23,568 bases of DNA from a virus, in IMG/VR virus record IMGVR_UViG_3300006802_000591, positions 1 to 23,568 of that record. One strand, 5' to 3'. Position 1 is the stretch's first letter; every line of letters starts with the position of its first letter. This document shows positions 77 through 8,957 of the stretch, piece by piece. Below the pieces are notes generated by a model, which made no database searches, was not told the origin of the DNA, and worked only from the letters and a program-made list of their open reading frames with translations. A program made the translations under genes and the position numbers.

Positions 77-225
77 CCCAGCAATCCTACGAGATCCTCA
101 TCACCACCCCCGGCGACAAGCCCATCACCAAAGAGGAGATGAAGGCGGCTGTGGAGAGAATGCCGGAGCTTCCCGAGGGCTCTCGGGTCCGCGTGACGCA
201 GATGTGGCCGGAGGCGCGGGTATGA
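73..225 (+). CDS. Small unknown protein, 50 aa
   Basis: This short ORF begins MTQQSYEILITTPGDKP and ends WPEARV. It fills exactly the space between the preceding gene (ATGA overlap at 73-76) and the DUF1064 gene (ATGA overlap at 222-225), so translational coupling supports it better than its length does. The composition suggests one small alpha/beta domain with a strand near residues 6-12 and a helix near 20-30. I recognise no motif. It probably belongs to the early/replication operon, by position only. Confidence 0.6.
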   Translation: MTQQSYEILITTPGDKPITKEEMKAAVERMPELPEGSRVRVTQMWPEARV

Positions 226-656
226 GGGAGTCCCTCGTCAGGCAAGCGCAGCGCGAGCGTCAGCGCGTTCTATCGCGCGATGAGGGCAGGGCTCTCATCA
301 ACGCACAGGCCAAGCGCAAGAACAAGTACGGCGCCAAGCGCACGACGATCGACGGCCAGACCTTCGATAGCAAAGGCGAGGCCGCACGTTTTCAGGTGCT
401 CAAGCGGCGGCAGCACATTGGCGAGATTGCCGAGTTGCAAGCGCAGGTGCCGTACCCGCTCACTGCGCCGAATGGCGAGGTCATCGGGACCTATGTCGCC
501 GACGCCGTCTACTTCGACTGCCGCGCCCGCAAGTGGGTGGTGGAAGACTTCAAGGGCGGTCGCGCGACGAAGACCGCGCTGTTCCGCTGGAAGGCCAAGC
601 ACATGCTGGCCGAGCACAAGATCGCAATCACCATCGTCGAGAGCCCGAACGCATGA
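222..656 (+). CDS. DUF1064-type PD-(D/E)xK phage nuclease
   Basis: This 144-aa protein matches the DUF1064 family of phage nucleases, often compared with Holliday-junction resolvases. A basic N-terminus (about 1-40) leads into KYGAKRT, FDSKGEAARF with Glu53, YVADAVYF with Asp94, and VVEDFKGG with Glu108 and Lys111, which is the order of a PD-(D/E)xK active site. In-frame ATGs lie further upstream, but the start at 222 has GGAGG at 210-214 and overlaps the previous stop as ATGA. The stop overlaps the next gene the same way. A role in recombination or branch resolution during replication is expected from the family and from its place before the replication genes; it is not shown here. Confidence 0.82.
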   Translation: MRESLVRQAQRERQRVLSRDEGRALINAQAKRKNKYGAKRTTIDGQTFDSKGEAARFQVLKRRQHIGEIAELQAQVPYPLTAPNGEVIGTYVADAVYFDCRARKWVVEDFKGGRATKTALFRWKAKHMLAEHKIAITIVESPNA

Positions 657-1231
657 GCCTGTCGGCAGCCATGATGCAAGCCCTCCTGGACGCAGGGGCA
701 ACGCCAGAGATGCTGGTGCGCGCTGCCGAGGCGGAAGAGCGCCGGATCGAAGATCGCGACGAGCGCAAGCGGGAACTGAACCGCGAGCGTCAGGCGCGGT
801 GGCGGCAGCGTCAGAAGGACGAGGAAAGCGTAACGCCCGTAACGCGTGACAAACGTAACGAGCGTGACAGCGAGACGAAGCCGGCGGCCAAGTCGAAGCC
901 GAAAGGCTGCCGAGTGGACGGATACGAACCGGACATCGCCGTCGCGGTCTCTCTCGGGTTGTCAGAAGAACGCGCCAAACTCCAGGCAGCGAAGTTCCTC
1001 GACTATTGGCGCAGCAAGCCGGGGCAAGCAGGCGTCAAGCTCGACTGGCTGGCAACGTGGCGGAACTGGATCCGCAGCGAGATTGAGCGGAACGGATCCG
1101 GCCATCTGCGGGTGGTCAACGGATCCGCGCCAACGAAGCCGCGCCGCACCGGCGACCGCCTCTTTGACCTGATGAACCCGCCCGCACCATCCGACGAAAG
1201 GACGATCGATGAATACGCACGCCGTCGTTAG
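653..1231 (+). CDS. Replication protein with DnaT/O-like C-terminal motif
   Basis: The 192-aa product starts with a helical segment, continues with a highly charged Arg/Glu stretch (about 28-85), and has the motif FLDYWRSKPG followed by KLDWLATWRNWIRS at about 115-142. A W-rich signature of this kind (F..YW..K.G...K.DW..TW..W) is common in the C-terminus of phage replication proteins and DnaT-like primosomal proteins, where it contributes to ssDNA or helicase contacts. The N-terminal winged-helix part usual in larger homologues is not evident, so this may be a short form. The start at 653 overlaps the previous stop as ATGA; an in-frame start at 533 would run deep into the nuclease gene and is rejected. 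The gene contains three CGTAACG and three GGATCC repeats. Confidence 0.65.
   Translation: MSLSAAMMQALLDAGATPEMLVRAAEAEERRIEDRDERKRELNRERQARWRQRQKDEESVTPVTRDKRNERDSETKPAAKSKPKGCRVDGYEPDIAVAVSLGLSEERAKLQAAKFLDYWRSKPGQAGVKLDWLATWRNWIRSEIERNGSGHLRVVNGSAPTKPRRTGDRLFDLMNPPAPSDERTIDEYARRR
829..868 (+). repeat. Three CGTAACG direct repeats (iteron-like)
   Basis: CGTAACG occurs at 829-835, 838-844 and 854-860. The second and third copies are followed by GTGAC at 846-850 and 864-868. The cluster lies in the low-complexity charged linker of the replication gene, where the protein can tolerate DNA-level constraint, as in lambda O, whose gene contains the origin iterons. Confidence 0.5.
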
Positions 1232-1883
1232 GCCGATCGAGAGCCGAAGCGTCATGGAGCTGATCACCATGGGCACGCAGATGGATCCGGCAGCGGAGTT
1301 CAAGCGCCTGTCCCGCATTCTGGATCCGGCGACGGATGAGGACGCTGCCGCAGCCATCTCGTTCATGTTCAAGATCCTGCCCATCGCCAACGTCGAGGAC
1401 GACGAAAGCCTATCCGTGGTCAGGGAGGGCTATCGGCTGGCCCTTCGCGGCTATCCGAAGTGGGCGATCCTCGAAGCGAGGGACGCTTTCATCGCAGGCC
1501 GTGTCGAGGGCTACACGTCCAGCTTTGCCCCGAACCCTGCCGACCTTGGCCGGGAGATCGGCCGCCGCGTCGCTGACTATCAGAACCGCCTTGCCCGCGC
1601 CCGTAAGCAGGCCGGCGAACAGAAGGCGCTAGGCACCGATAACCGGGAGCCGACCAGCGAGGCCGTCCGCGCCGAAGTCGCAGAGCGGATCCAGAAGATG
1701 AAGGCCGTTGCGGAAGACGAGCGGTCATCCCTGCGGGCGTTCAACGGACCGGACCTGTCCGCCTACTACGTCCAGCGCGCGGATCCGCCGTCGAAGCTCT
1801 CGCGCCCGCTCACCCCGGAAGATGTCGCTGGCATTCCCGATGCGCCGCCGAGGGGCACCGGATCCATGCAGCCTGTCGGATCC
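1068..1883 (+). repeat. Cluster of nine GGATCC hexamers, candidate origin region
   Basis: GGATCC starts at 1068, 1094, 1121, 1283, 1322, 1687, 1781, 1860 and 1878. Eye-scanning the remaining 22.7 kb found no other copy. Flanks are biased: the preceding base is always a pyrimidine and the following base is G in seven of nine, giving YGGATCCG. Copies fall in all three frames, so codon bias does not explain them. They span the end of the replication gene and most of the next gene. Confidence 0.75.
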
Positions 1884-1937
1884 GCCGGGCCGTTCCGCAG
1901 CTCCCGAATGATCAAGGAAGAGGAGGCAAGCCGCTGA
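1209..1937 (+). CDS. Unknown replication-module protein in helicase-loader position
   Basis: This 242-aa product overlaps the preceding gene by 23 nt and has AAAGGA at about 1197-1202 ahead of the ATG at 1209. The core (about 50-120) looks helical and reads PKWAILEARDAFIAGRVEGYTSSFAPNP; a charged helix follows (about 125-175), then a Pro/Ser-rich tail (about 180-242). I do not recognise a family. Its place after a replication protein and before a DnaA-like protein is where phages often encode a helicase loader or second replication factor, but no Walker motif is visible, so a DnaC-type ATPase is unlikely. Six of the nine GGATCC repeats lie inside it. A downstream in-frame ATG at 1254 is a possible alternative start. 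Confidence 0.7.
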   Translation: MNTHAVVRPIESRSVMELITMGTQMDPAAEFKRLSRILDPATDEDAAAAISFMFKILPIANVEDDESLSVVREGYRLALRGYPKWAILEARDAFIAGRVEGYTSSFAPNPADLGREIGRRVADYQNRLARARKQAGEQKALGTDNREPTSEAVRAEVAERIQKMKAVAEDERSSLRAFNGPDLSAYYVQRADPPSKLSRPLTPEDVAGIPDAPPRGTGSMQPVGSAGPFRSSRMIKEEEASR

Positions 1938-2341
1938 TGCAGACACACGCCGAACAGCCGCACGTCCTTCGCGGATGGTACGACAAGGCCAACCGCCGCG
2001 CCGATGCTGTGATGCAACCGACAGCCTCATGGATCGTCCAGGAGGTCGCCGCAGATCACGGGGTGACGGTCTCGTGGCTGCGCTCGACCCGCAACAGCCG
2101 CCGGCACGCTGCGGCACGGCGTCATGCGATGTACGAGATCGCCCGGCAGTGCCCGCATATGTCGCTGCGGATGATCGGGAACTTCTTCGACGGCATCCAC
2201 CATACGACAGTGCTCCATGCCATCCGCGAGTGGCCGGAGACGGCGGCCCGCATGGGCATCGAGGTCGAGCCTCTGCCGCAAAGGGCAAACGGCGTCATGG
2301 GGCGGGCTCGTCCACTGGACACAGGCAAAAGGGGCAACTGA
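1937..2341 (+). CDS. Stand-alone DnaA domain IV-like DNA-binding protein
   Basis: The 134-aa protein has AARRHAMYEIARQCPHMSL at about 59-77 and GIHHTTVLHAI at about 86-96, which match the DnaA C-terminal domain (helix-turn-helix plus the DHTTVLHA signature that reads DnaA boxes). In the first His position of the signature the usual Asp is replaced by His. The AAA+ ATPase domain of full-length DnaA is absent, so it could bind DNA but not form an ATP-driven helix by itself. Start and stop both use TGATG-type 1-nt overlaps (1937 and 2341), so it is coupled to both neighbours. It could bind the origin, act as a DnaA competitor, or regulate transcription; the sequence does not decide. Confidence 0.82.
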   Translation: MQTHAEQPHVLRGWYDKANRRADAVMQPTASWIVQEVAADHGVTVSWLRSTRNSRRHAAARRHAMYEIARQCPHMSLRMIGNFFDGIHHTTVLHAIREWPETAARMGIEVEPLPQRANGVMGRARPLDTGKRGN

Positions 2342-2889
2342 TGGCAAGCGTCGGGGCAGACGAATTGCACTGGTACGTTGCGAAGACGAATGTGCGCTGC
2401 GAGGAACGCGCACAAGCGTCTATCGAGGCGGAAGGCTACACGGCCTATGTGCCGATCTCCATTGTCGAGAAGCGGCACAATCGGACAAAGCAGTGGCAGG
2501 AGCATCGCCGAGTCCTGCTGGTCGGCTATCTCTTTCTCGGCATGCCGGCAGACGAGCGCCAGCGCCATTGGGGCGTCATCCGCAAATGCGACGGCGTGAA
2601 GGACATCCTGGGCCGCGATACGGGCGCACCGCTCCGCATCCCGACAAGCGAGGTCACAGCCTTCATGGAGAAGCAGGCGCTGGGCGATTTCGACATCCGG
2701 CGCCGTAGCTCTGTCAAGCGCCAATTCACGGTCGACGAGCAGGTCGTCATCGGCTCTGGCCCGTTCGCTGATATAACCGGAGTGATACGCGACGTGCGCG
2801 GTCGCCAGATGTGCGAAGTGATGATCAACCTGCTGGGCAGCTTGGTTCCTGTGCACATCTCGGAGCGGGAGTTGCGGAAAGTCGCGTGA
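2341..2889 (+). CDS. NusG/RfaH-like transcription elongation factor (phage paralog)
   Basis: The 182-aa product has the NusG N-terminal (NGN) domain: HWYVAKTNVRCEERAQ at about 10-25, a Tyr/Pro strand AYVPISIVE, and VLLVGYLFLGM at about 58-68, the counterpart of the P-L-FPGYLFV strand. A C-terminal KOW module follows at about 129-180 with FTVDEQVVIGSGPFADITG. NusG-family proteins bind the RNA polymerase clamp and the C-terminal domain contacts Rho or the ribosome (NusE). RfaH/LoaP-type paralogs suppress termination on specific operons. The 1-nt overlap at 2341 ties it to the DnaA-like gene. It is the last gene of the tightly coupled block, a good position for an early-to-late switch factor; that role is inferred. 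Confidence 0.85.
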   Translation: MASVGADELHWYVAKTNVRCEERAQASIEAEGYTAYVPISIVEKRHNRTKQWQEHRRVLLVGYLFLGMPADERQRHWGVIRKCDGVKDILGRDTGAPLRIPTSEVTAFMEKQALGDFDIRRRSSVKRQFTVDEQVVIGSGPFADITGVIRDVRGRQMCEVMINLLGSLVPVHISERELRKVA

Positions 2890-2917: not shown

Positions 2918-3616
2918 ATGTGGTTCGGCAGGATGAGCGCCTGCCATAAGATGGGGCCGCAAGGTTTCGCGTCGGGGCGCAGCGGACTATCGATCCGCAC
3001 GGAACCAGAAGAGCGCCTTTTGACCACTCCGGCACCATACGTGATGCAGTTGTATTGCGGGACGTCTGATGTCGACGACGACCTGATCGAGCGCGCCACC
3101 AAATTCATGATCCTCGGCGGCGTAGAGGCTTCGGCAGTGAGCCGAGAGAACGACCTTCGGTCATTCTACAATCGCCGCTCCAAACGGACGCCATCCACGA
3201 CACGCGATGGTCTGGGCCGGGTTTGGCTCAAACTGTTCGCCGACTACAGTGGCGACAAGTGCATTCTCTACCCGTTCAGGACGGCGTACCAGCCAAGAGG
3301 CCGGCTCAGGTATAACTTCAAGGACATGCAAGCGCATCGCGCCATGTGCCTGATGGTCCACAAGGTGCCAGATAACCCCAAGGCCATGGCGCTGCATCGT
3401 TGCGGCAACGGGCATTTGGGGTGCGTCAATCCAAACCACCTTTATTGGGGCGACCAGTCGGATAATTCGAAGGACGCTCGGCGTCACATGGCTGAAGGCA
3501 AGCCCGACATGGGCGACTTCGGCAAGACGCCAGATCGGGCGGCGCCGCACAGGCGGCCAGTCAGATCAAAACAGTTTGTCGGTGTGGAGCAGCCCGGTAG
3601 CTCGCAAGGCTCATAA
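2918..3616 (+). CDS. HNH endonuclease (HNH_3-like)
   Basis: The ORF encodes up to 232 aa with a clear HNH nuclease core at about 139-195: AHRAMCLMVHK, ALHRCGNGHLGCVNPNHLYWGD and SDNSKDARRHMAEGK. The pattern H(RC)...CVNPNHL...N is typical of phage HNH_3-like homing-type enzymes that make nicks or breaks near their own gene. The true start is uncertain: ATG at 2918, 2933, 2951 and 3044 are in frame and none has a good Shine-Dalgarno sequence. The final 13 codons overlap the tRNA gene at 3578-3654, and the TAA stop sits in the tRNA anticodon loop, so this terminus may be accidental. The gene stands apart from the coupled operons on both sides, as expected for a mobile endonuclease. Confidence 0.8.
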   Translation: MWFGRMSACHKMGPQGFASGRSGLSIRTEPEERLLTTPAPYVMQLYCGTSDVDDDLIERATKFMILGGVEASAVSRENDLRSFYNRRSKRTPSTTRDGLGRVWLKLFADYSGDKCILYPFRTAYQPRGRLRYNFKDMQAHRAMCLMVHKVPDNPKAMALHRCGNGHLGCVNPNHLYWGDQSDNSKDARRHMAEGKPDMGDFGKTPDRAAPHRRPVRSKQFVGVEQPGSSQGS

Positions 3617-3654
3617 CCTTGAGGACGCAGGTTCGAATCCTGCCACCGCAACCA
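3578..3654 (+). tRNA. Initiator-like tRNA-Met (CAT)
   Basis: A full cloverleaf can be drawn. Acceptor 3578-3584 faces 3644-3650, with pairs 3-7 formed and 1-72 (G/A) and 2-71 (U/C) unpaired. The D-stem is GAGC/GCTC (3587-3590, 3600-3603). The anticodon stem is CAAGG/CCTTG with CAT at 3612-3614. The T-stem is GCAGG/CCTGC around TTCGAAT, and an encoded CCA ends at 3654. The unpaired 1-72 position, A11-U24 in the D-stem and overall likeness to bacterial tRNA-fMet point to an initiator type. Two G-C pairs plus A29-U41 replace the usual three G-C pairs of the anticodon stem. It overlaps the 3' end of the HNH ORF. Confidence 0.88.
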
Positions 3655-7035: not shown

Positions 7036-8957
7036 CCGAAGCCACCAAGATCACAAAGGGCGAGCCGGTCCCCCAGTCCTTCAAGCGGTGGTATCTGAAT
7101 GACCGTGACAAGACCGAGGATTGGCGCAAGGAAGCGCGTGAGGATTACGACTTTTTCGCTGGTCGTCAGTATACAGATGAGGAGATGGCCGCGCTGAAGG
7201 ACAAGGCGCGCCCGATCGTCACCTTCAACCGCATTGGCCCGGTGGTGGATTCCGTCCACGGCCAGGAGATCGGCAACCGCCGCGAGGTTCGCTATATCCC
7301 GCGTGAAGAAGGCGACGTTAAGCCGAACGAGATCCTGACCTCGGCTGCCGAGTGGTTTCGTGATCAGTCGCACGCAGACGACGAGGAGAGCGACAGCTTT
7401 CTCGACACCATCATCTGCGGCATGGGCTGGACGGAAACCCGCATCGACTTCGAGGAGCAGCCGGACGGCAAGCCTGTCGTGTCCCGTGTAGATCCTCTGG
7501 AGATGTTCTGGGACTTTGACGCCCGGTCTCGTAACCTGTCCGATGCTCGCCGCGTGTGGCGTGTTCGCCGTGTGCCTCTGTCCGAGGCCATGAGCATGTT
7601 CCCGGGCAAGCCCAAGGCCGAGTTGGATGCTACTTGGACGATGGTTCAGAGCGCGGCAGACCTTCAGCGTGAGGAGGACACCCCGAACGAGGATGAAGAC
7701 GCTGGCGACGGCATGGTCACCATTGTGCATTGCCAGTGGGTAGAGCGCGAATCCTACATGATGGCGCAAGACCCGCTATCGGGCGAGGTCGCCGAGTTCA
7801 CCGAAGCTGAATTCAGCACGGTCAACAAGCGCCTCAAGCAGATGGTCGGCGTCGAGATGCAGGGCGTGCGCAAGAAGCGCAAGGTCCGCAAGCAGGCGTT
7901 CATGGGCGACGTGGTGTTGTCCAATGGACCGGCGCCGTGCCCGTATCAGTTTTCGTTCCAGTGCATCACCGGCAAGCGGGATCGCAACAAGGGTACGTGG
8001 TACGGCCTCGTGCGCGCCATGAAGGACCCACAGCGGTGGGCCAACAAGTGGCTGTCGCAGATGATGCACATCATGAACAGCAACTCCAAGGGCGGGTTGC
8101 TGGCCGAGCGCGGTGCATTCGATGACCAGCGGCAGGCAGAGGCGTCATGGGCTGACCCTAGCGCCATCACGTGGCTCAAGAGCGGCGCGCTGAGTGGGCA
8201 GGCCCCCGCGGTCAAGGAAAAGGGAGCAACGCAGTTCCCGGCTGGCTTCCAGCAACTGACGGAGTTCGCGATTTCGTCCATTCGGGACACGTCGGGCGTT
8301 TCGGTCGAGATGCTGGGCATGCGCGAGGCCAATCAGGCGGCATCGCTCGAATATCAGCGCCGACAGGCCGGCATGACGATCTTGCAGCCGCTGTTCGACA
8401 GCCTCAAGCACTACCGCGAGCTCCAGGGCCGCGTGATGCTTCATTACATCCAGGAGGATCTGTCAGACGGTCGCCTGATCCGCATCGTTGGCGAGGCGCA
8501 GAGCCAGTATGTGCCGCTAGTGAAGCAGTCGACGCTGGATTACGACATCATTGTCGAGGATGCGCCAACGTCGCCGAACCAGAAAGAAGCGACATGGGGC
8601 TTCCTGTCCCAGCTTCTGCCGTCGATCGCCAAGATGGTGCCGCCGCAGATGCTTCTGATGCTGATGGAGTATTCCCCGCTGCCGTCCGCAGTCATCGAGA
8701 AGCTGCAAAAGGCGGCTCAGGAGATGGAACAGCAGCAGCAGCCTGCGCAACAGGCTCAGCAGCAGATGGCGATGGAGCAGCATCAGTCGGAAATGGCAAA
8801 GGCTGCATCCGAGACCGCCGAAAACCAGGCAGGCGCTCAGTTGGATGTTGCCAAGGCGCAGGCCGAGGACGTTTACGCGTCCGCTGAGTTTGCTCAGGCC
8901 ATCCAGGCGCTGATGAACCCACAAGTTCCCGAGCCGAGCGGGTCATCTTGGCAGTAG
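7032..8957 (+). CDS. Portal protein (P22 gp1-like)
   Basis: The 641-aa protein matches P22-type portals: FKRWYLNDRDKTEDWRKEAREDYDFFAGRQY near the N-terminus, then RPIVTFNRIGPVVDSVHGQE and a conserved VDPLEMFWDFDAR block at about 155-167, and FAISSIRDTSGVSVEMLG in the helical wing. The C-terminus (about 560-620) is Gln/Ala-rich and probably forms the coiled-coil barrel seen in P22. The dodecamer is the DNA channel and docks TerL and the tail machine. Its start overlaps terL as ATGA. Length is close to that of other P22-like portals (over 600 aa). Confidence 0.93.
   Translation: MTEATKITKGEPVPQSFKRWYLNDRDKTEDWRKEAREDYDFFAGRQYTDEEMAALKDKARPIVTFNRIGPVVDSVHGQEIGNRREVRYIPREEGDVKPNEILTSAAEWFRDQSHADDEESDSFLDTIICGMGWTETRIDFEEQPDGKPVVSRVDPLEMFWDFDARSRNLSDARRVWRVRRVPLSEAMSMFPGKPKAELDATWTMVQSAADLQREEDTPNEDEDAGDGMVTIVHCQWVERESYMMAQDPLSGEVAEFTEAEFSTVNKRLKQMVGVEMQGVRKKRKVRKQAFMGDVVLSNGPAPCPYQFSFQCITGKRDRNKGTWYGLVRAMKDPQRWANKWLSQMMHIMNSNSKGGLLAERGAFDDQRQAEASWADPSAITWLKSGALSGQAPAVKEKGATQFPAGFQQLTEFAISSIRDTSGVSVEMLGMREANQAASLEYQRRQAGMTILQPLFDSLKHYRELQGRVMLHYIQEDLSDGRLIRIVGEAQSQYVPLVKQSTLDYDIIVEDAPTSPNQKEATWGFLSQLLPSIAKMVPPQMLLMLMEYSPLPSAVIEKLQKAAQEMEQQQQPAQQAQQQMAMEQHQSEMAKAASETAENQAGAQLDVAKAQAEDVYASAEFAQAIQALMNPQVPEPSGSSWQ

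Follow-up and report, generated by a model that had tools for sequence, protein, structure and literature searches.

The pac site of phage P1 is made up of clusters of Dam-methylated hexamers. According to Sternberg and Coulby (1990), as cited in PMC3089641, its cleavage is regulated by adenine methylation. In lambdoid phages, the origin iterons lie inside the O gene and can add residues to the O protein, as with the two additional iterons found in Stx phages, which add 13 residues to O (PMC7466680). Extrachromosomal prophages of mycobacteriophages carry parS beside repA (PMC7157519). With regard to DnaA, residue R399 of the E. coli protein reads the 5' TTA of its box (PMC5742627), the weak ATP-DnaA boxes of E. 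coli have TGATCC as their core and the high-affinity box of Caulobacter is TGATCCACA (PMC8235120, PMC4285127). At the scale of whole genomes, the highly iterated palindromes (HIPs) comprise HIP1 of cyanobacteria and alternate HIPs, which include GGGATCCC (PMC4390886).

The cluster of nine GGATCC palindromes described here resembles each of these systems in part. It shares with lambda O and ori-lambda the presence of repeated putative binding sites inside an initiator gene, in protein-tolerant segments and within a replication module; however, the GGATCC sites are short palindromes, scattered irregularly across two genes within 816 bp, and they lie outside the linker. As with the parS of ParABS systems, including the phage parS near repA, multiple copies of a short site are found close to a replication gene, but the sites in our case are only 6–8 bp long. 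Similarly to P1 pac, GATC-containing hexamers are clustered within a gene, although the cluster lies far from the terminase genes and GATC as such is not enriched. The GATCC core and the adjacent gene for a DnaA-domain-IV protein recall the Caulobacter G-boxes and the weak E. coli ATP-DnaA boxes, whereas the palindromic form of the sites contrasts with the asymmetric 9-mers of DnaA box clusters. Finally, the motif is, like HIP1 and the alternate HIPs, a GC-rich, GATC-cored palindrome present in coding sequence in all frames, yet HIPs are distributed genome-wide and here a single 816-bp cluster was found, with no copy otherwise.

GGATCC sites and their gene neighbourhood

The window, i.e., the whole stretch of 23,568 bases that was analysed, is a 23.6-kb linear virus record (IMGVR_UViG_3300006802_000591), probably a fragment. 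It contains nine GGATCC hexamers, starting at positions 1068, 1094, 1121, 1283, 1322, 1687, 1781, 1860 and 1878, all of them within 1068-1883 (816 bp) and none in the other 22.7 kb. Dinucleotide shuffles gave an expectation of 9.2 copies for the whole window; the total is ordinary, but the placement is not. The initial annotation, made from the letters alone, had reported this packing, and our recount returned the same nine positions. The wider consensus YGGATCCG that it had proposed also holds at all nine sites on one strand or the other, with seven in forward orientation and two, at 1687 and 1860, that fit it on the reverse strand alone. When flanks were read on the + strand, nine out of nine sites were YGGATCCR, and four of them are complete CGGATCCG palindromes.

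An unsupervised scan of k-mers ranked CGGATCC/GGATCC as the strongest local cluster of the window, within which no equally dense GGATCC cluster occurs elsewhere. Furthermore, among approximately 200 phage loci, fetched irrespective of GGATCC, this cluster ranked first for palindromic hexamers and octamers. The spacings between consecutive sites (26, 27, 162, 39, 365, 94, 79 and 18) are irregular, with no clear helical phasing of the nine sites, and no AT-rich stretch was found accompanying them. Since the record is probably a fragment, further GGATCC sites may lie to the left of the window.

With regard to the surrounding genes, the one that ends at base 76 (tail GRCLIMHPEMVRELERRIDAIGAA) gave no match. 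Positions 225..656 (+) encode a DUF1064/Holliday junction resolvase-like protein (PF06356, E 3.3e-12; phrog_190, E 3.9e-25), and 653..1231 (+) encode a replication initiation/primosomal protein, lambda-O-like by arrangement (phrog_3992, E 4.6e-16; phrog_1408, E 2.2e-6), in whose gene sites 1–3 are located. Sites 4–9 are situated in the next gene (1209..1937, +), which encodes a partner protein with no assigned function, here called ORF 1209, and which is homologous to the genes in the same place in loci L088, L033, L324 and L326. A stand-alone DnaA domain IV-like protein (1937..2341, +; PF08299, E 1.7e-14) and a NusG-like transcription antiterminator (2341..2889, +; phrog_6386, E 1.8e-26; PF02357) are encoded thereafter, with an HNH endonuclease (2918-3616) downstream of the latter, followed by an Sf6-like terminase small subunit, the terminase large subunit, portal and major head protein. 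Family matches place the cluster in the replication module and bear out the DnaA domain IV-like neighbour of the initial annotation.

Similar gene sets are present in L033 and in the Rhizobium phage RHph_N28_2, and in loci of Ensifer and Sinorhizobium a DnaA-domain-IV gene accompanies a homologue of the replication protein. The structure models of the two site-bearing proteins (pLDDT 72 for the replication protein, 66 for ORF 1209) gave no significant match in searches of the PDB. A phage tRNA-Met (CAT) is located at 3578-3654 of the window, directly after the HNH gene, as is likewise the case in Sinorhizobium phage phiLM21; an Rfam search of the window found only a tRNA.

Within the replication gene, site 1 (1068..1073, TGGATCCG) falls in the conserved C-terminal domain, where it encodes W-I-R. 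Site 2 (1094..1099, CGGATCCG) encodes G-S in a segment missing from most aligned homologues, and site 3 (1121..1126, CGGATCCG) also encodes G-S; these two have in common the inserted segment NGSGHLRVVNGSAPT, for which the equivalent stretch in L033 is RNGGGNGQ. In ORF 1209, site 4 (1283..1288, TGGATCCG, M-D-P) lies near the disordered N terminus, site 5 (1322..1327, TGGATCCG, L-D-P) on the border of the folded core, and site 6 (1687..1692, CGGATCCA, R-I-Q) in the long C-terminal helix. The remaining three fall in a segment of ORF 1209 without counterpart in aligned homologues: site 7 (1781..1786, CGGATCCG, A-D-P) in a disordered stretch, and sites 8 (1860..1865, CGGATCCA, G-S) and 9 (1878..1883, CGGATCCG, G-S) in a disordered insertion, after which homology to L088 restarts at 1893. 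The site-free gap at 1328-1686 coincides with the core of ORF 1209 (residues 40–140, nt 1326-1628), whose fold is predicted with confidence.

DNA-level signal and avoidance of other palindromes

The placement of the sites was evaluated against a codon-aware null model, such as the initial annotation had proposed, in which the encoded proteins were kept fixed and codons were drawn from the phage's own usage (20,000 simulations). In ORFs 653-1231 and 1209-1937, nine of the 11 positions that permit GGATCC were used, in comparison with 1.87 expected and a simulation maximum of six, and the exact probability of at least nine out of 11 was 2.2e-8. Outside the cluster, none of the 47–49 permitting positions was used (3.5 expected of 49). 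Gly-Ser pairs were written GGA TCC in four of four cases in the cluster, versus none of 25 elsewhere.

The sites span three codon frames (WIR, NGS, MDP, LDP, RIQ, ADP, TGS and VGS are encoded), and therefore no protein repeat explains the cluster. Moreover, permitting positions are three times commoner per residue in the cluster genes than in the rest, so that the protein sequence itself seems bent, i.e., shifted to admit GGATCC. Five sites (2, 3, 7, 8 and 9) are located in protein segments without counterpart in aligned homologues, as extra lambdoid iterons are (PMC7466680). Together with the use of three frames, this indicates a signal at the DNA level: the GGATCC copies are clearly selected as DNA and not as protein code. 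In line with these results, several statements of the initial annotation held, namely, that all reading frames of two genes are occupied, that only a fraction of one copy would be expected locally (0.7 in the module, against the nine seen), that several copies would be expected, and none is found, in the rest of the window, and that the cluster is likely functional, as it does look functional at the DNA level.

The general avoidance of such palindromes by phages, also invoked there, is pronounced in this genome. In the backbone (1893-23568), 25 other palindromic hexamers were seen 56 times in total versus 247 expected, with GGGCCC (0 versus 10.7 expected) and CAGCTG (0 versus 8.6) as examples, which suggests heavy restriction pressure. 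The hexamer GCCGGC behaves oppositely to the other palindromes and is enriched in the backbone. As for GGATCC itself, nine copies were seen versus 80 expected in 17 terminase relatives, and two versus 19 expected in the L088 contig. Its absence elsewhere in the window is thus ordinary for the phage family, and the cluster is the remarkable half of the pattern. Within the replication module, the 25 other palindromic hexamers are avoided as strongly as in the backbone (six seen versus 21 expected), yet GGATCC is present there nine times; hence, only GGATCC escapes the purge on module DNA.

Candidate origin iterons and relatives of the module

A separate set of repeats is found upstream of the cluster, at 829..868 (+), where CGTAACG occurs at 829, 838 and 854 and CGTGAC at 845 and 863 (linker VTPVTRDKRNERD). 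This stretch codes for residues ~59–72 of the replication protein, whose linker (residues 61–80) is predicted to be disordered between a helical N-terminal part and a folded C-terminal part. The same motif is present in the same place in L033, a syntenic phage contig with no GGATCC at all, in which the linker of the rep gene (7267-7400) contains five copies of CGTAAC plus GTGACG/CGTCAC copies. Intragenic repeats are also found in other relatives, where they precede the conserved C-terminal motif of the replication protein by 200–400 bp. The rep genes of L162 and L304 harbor AAAGGGTT repeats with 12-bp spacing, that of L103 has CGTTACA at 9-bp spacing, related to the motif of the window, and that of L296/L297 has five copies of ACCGGT. 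Inside the rep gene of L096 (8110-8236), five TCCGCGGA palindromes within 130 bp make up an apparent palindromic iteron set. Judging by such repeats, lineage-specific intragenic iterons, some of them palindromic, are normal in the replication genes of relatives.

Based on the repeats, their position in the linker and the match in L033, 829-868 is probably a lambda-O-like intragenic origin with CGTAACG/CGTGAC as its iterons. These repeats lie in the initiator-gene linker, as those of lambda O do. The GGATCC set, on the other hand, begins in the C-terminal domain of the replication protein, continues through the next gene and lacks near-regular spacing. The best guess of the initial annotation, binding sites of the phage initiator in an intragenic origin, can therefore be kept only in part: an origin is probable, but its iterons would be the CGTAACG/CGTGAC repeats and not GGATCC, which L033 does without.

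The comparison with L088 delimits the segment to which the cluster belongs. Positions 211..1893 of the window have no nucleotide homology in L088 and lie between stretches of 87% and 95% identity, and all nine sites are inside this segment. Positions 1893-2344 are shared at 95% nucleotide identity, and the 42 kb of L088 contain two GGATCC and no array. It is consequently the 211-1893 segment, rather than the DnaA-like gene, with which the array travels. In L007, whose terminase is 100% identical, there is no GGATCC in 11.8 kb. Protein searches of phages, plasmids, IMG/VR and GTDB genomes revealed neither the array in relatives nor a close relative of the replication module, and of 117 viral contigs in which the rep motif TGGCGNAAYTGG occurs, none has a YGGATCCR array after that motif. 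A count of GGATCC in relatives had been proposed in the initial annotation as a check, and no relative that was found has a comparable array.

A putative binding array and its alternatives

The explanation that we prefer, albeit tentatively, is that the nine YGGATCCR sites constitute a lineage-specific, cis-acting intragenic array of putative protein-binding sites, involved in replication control or maintenance. The existence, location and exact motif of the cluster, the selection or bias at the DNA level and the separate iteron set are direct observations, from which we infer that a binding array, and a role in replication or maintenance, are probably involved. Such an array would start about 200 bp downstream of the putative lambda-O-like iteron origin (829-868), and its sites would fill mainly protein-tolerant parts of the two genes. 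A symmetric (dimeric) DNA-binding protein, from the phage or from the host, would occupy several sites at once, and the resulting nucleoprotein complex beside the origin would regulate or assist replication initiation, or would pair, partition and maintain plasmid-like copies. Candidate readers are the replication protein, the product of ORF 1209 and a protein encoded outside the record; the DnaA-domain-IV protein by itself is a less likely reader on the basis of the sequence comparisons given below. In favour of a binding array are the packing and shared flanks of the sites, the codon-aware result with its three frames, the five sites in segments without counterpart, the overlap of the site-free gap with the folded core, the escape of GGATCC from the purge and the private motifs in the rep genes of relatives. 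Against it are, above all, the lack of the array in every relative found, and also the irregular spacing, the missing AT-rich stretch, the empty structure searches and the presence of another iteron set in its usual place. Neither ParA nor ParB was identified among the genes searched in this 23.6-kb record, which is probably a fragment.

A more elaborate version, possible but unlikely, involves two site systems, in which the ordinary direct-repeat iterons of the linker would be complemented by exact 8-bp palindromes, dispersed over two genes, for a dedicated dimeric reader, and the hexamer would be purged elsewhere so that this reader assembles next to the origin and nowhere else. In a variant of this, a repurposed DnaA-domain-IV protein may be part of the reader. 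If the cluster is a binding array, the replication region of the phage carries a second code, exact in sequence, that runs through two protein genes, in nine sites that are mostly removable by synonymous change. This would also help to explain the partners of the stand-alone DnaA-domain-IV proteins that are widespread in Rhizobiales phages, or would exclude them.

The main rival of the binding array, which ranks second and which we consider unlikely though credible, is that module 211-1893 was acquired from a GGATCC-iterated phage lineage, comparable to HIP1 of cyanobacteria, and that the sites have no local function. Unrelated GC-rich phages with such genomes do exist and were reached through a pattern search for nearby YGGATCCR: L223 has 31 GGATCC in 6.4 kb and L237 has 37 in 8.9 kb, while the 38-kb L333 contig has 71, with ~5 per kb over its first 6 kb and a stretch without any at ~17.3-25.2 kb. 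All three show the same YR flank preference and use 55–64% of the possible positions, nine sites in 1.68 kb equal the density of L223, and the right edge of the cluster at 1883 almost meets the exchange boundary at 1893, where homology to L088 resumes. HIP palindromes, moreover, track orphan methyltransferases (PMC4390886). Nevertheless, other palindromes are only weakly avoided in L223, L237 and L333 (ratio ~0.7), in contrast to the strong avoidance in the module; the dinucleotide signature of the module is not foreign; and, among 297 genomes from the order of a Sinorhizobium host, none exceeds ~0.13 copies of CGGATCCG per kb. For these reasons, import was placed second. In addition, no related phage with a GGATCC-iterated genome was found, and the genome-wide high frequency that is typical of HIPs is absent both from the window (0 in the other 22.7 kb) and from L007. 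A HIP of the host as the source of the sites was discarded, with none of the 297 sampled genomes of the order being rich in CGGATCCG.

Regarding the GGATCC-iterated phages themselves, L223 and L237 (94% identity) have 28 of 31 GGATCC sites in common, versus 70% of all hexamers. This GC-rich, HIP-like family comprises L223, L237 and L331-L335, with L336 and L337 together making up the L333 contig, in which two DPPY/NPPF methyltransferase-like ORFs were observed (30330-31031 and 32312-33052). A non-exhaustive literature search found no report of HIP-like palindrome iteration in phages. If the cluster was instead left over from a GGATCC-iterated genome, it is a visible marker of module exchange that points to L333-type HIP-like lineages.

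It is rather doubtful that the sites are DnaA-type boxes, i.e., that the stand-alone DnaA-domain-IV protein (1937-2341), by virtue of changed base-reading residues, binds GATCC cores. This core is present on both strands of GGATCC and belongs to known boxes of E. coli and Caulobacter, as described above, and the gene directly follows the cluster. In the alignment of its product to 1j1v, R399 is replaced by N and D433 by H, changes that make a shift away from TTATNCACA plausible. However, the L088 protein is 98% identical (three of 134 residues differ), yet no array accompanies it in 42 kb, and the other phages with a DnaA-domain-IV protein (L033, L105, L327, L291, L293 and L008) have no GGATCC array either. 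Furthermore, DnaA boxes are asymmetric 9-mers near TTATCCACA, and no match of the TTATCCACA type was found in the window, where the sites are palindromic. The DnaA domain IV-like protein, to which the initial annotation had assigned a helping role at the sites, is thus probably not a GGATCC reader. Stand-alone proteins of this type are encoded in many phages and prophages, several of them from Rhizobiales and often near a replication gene (L033, L105, L289-L291, L293, L008, L309 and L327); the version shared by the window and L088 is the one changed at both R399 and D433.

Methylation-coupled control, whereby clustered GATC methylation would gate packaging or re-initiation as in P1 pac or SeqA/oriC, appears quite improbable. 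A D12-type (Dam-like) adenine methyltransferase (PF02086, E 1.2e-24) is encoded at L088:4914-5747, directly upstream of the module position in this relative, whose flanking genes are the same, and the regulation of P1 pac cleavage mentioned above would fit such a control. Yet 1000-1950 contains 16 GATC, nine of which are the hexamers themselves, and the remainder is at background (179 per 23.6 kb), so that GGATCC only, and not GATC, is locally enriched. Besides, the terminase small subunit is Sf6-like and encoded 3.2 kb from the cluster, and no gene of the window, probably a fragment, was recognised as a methyltransferase, versus two candidates in L088. Control through the GATC core, also put forward initially, is therefore not indicated in its plain Dam-type form. 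The second candidate in L088 is a DPPY methyltransferase located elsewhere, and in the window the equivalent of the D12 gene is truncated at base 1.

Chance, codon usage or an assembly or cloning artefact is very unlikely indeed, given that the codon-aware test (P 2.2e-8) and the top rank among ~200 loci argue against it and that the two reading frames are unbroken and have homologues among phage genes, unlike those of BamHI-linker chimeras, even if the choice of the window by an oddity-seeking reader entails some selection effect and site 1 and sites 4–7 are individually likely given the proteins.

Clustered palindromes were also encountered in unrelated sequences. When IMG/VR was scanned for the pattern of three nearby YGGATCCR, most of the matches, among those listed, looked like coding tandem repeats. 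In the IMG isolate prophages L038, L055 and L065, probably from Burkholderia, paired GGATCC (tgacccgaGGATCCac ... GGATCCcagg-ctca) lie in direct repeats upstream of a terminase gene, and these were set aside as a different feature. In L173 (2294-2740), an unrelated phage, many TGGATCCA-type palindromes are intergenic, between primase/helicase-like and terminase-like genes, and look like an operator or origin array.
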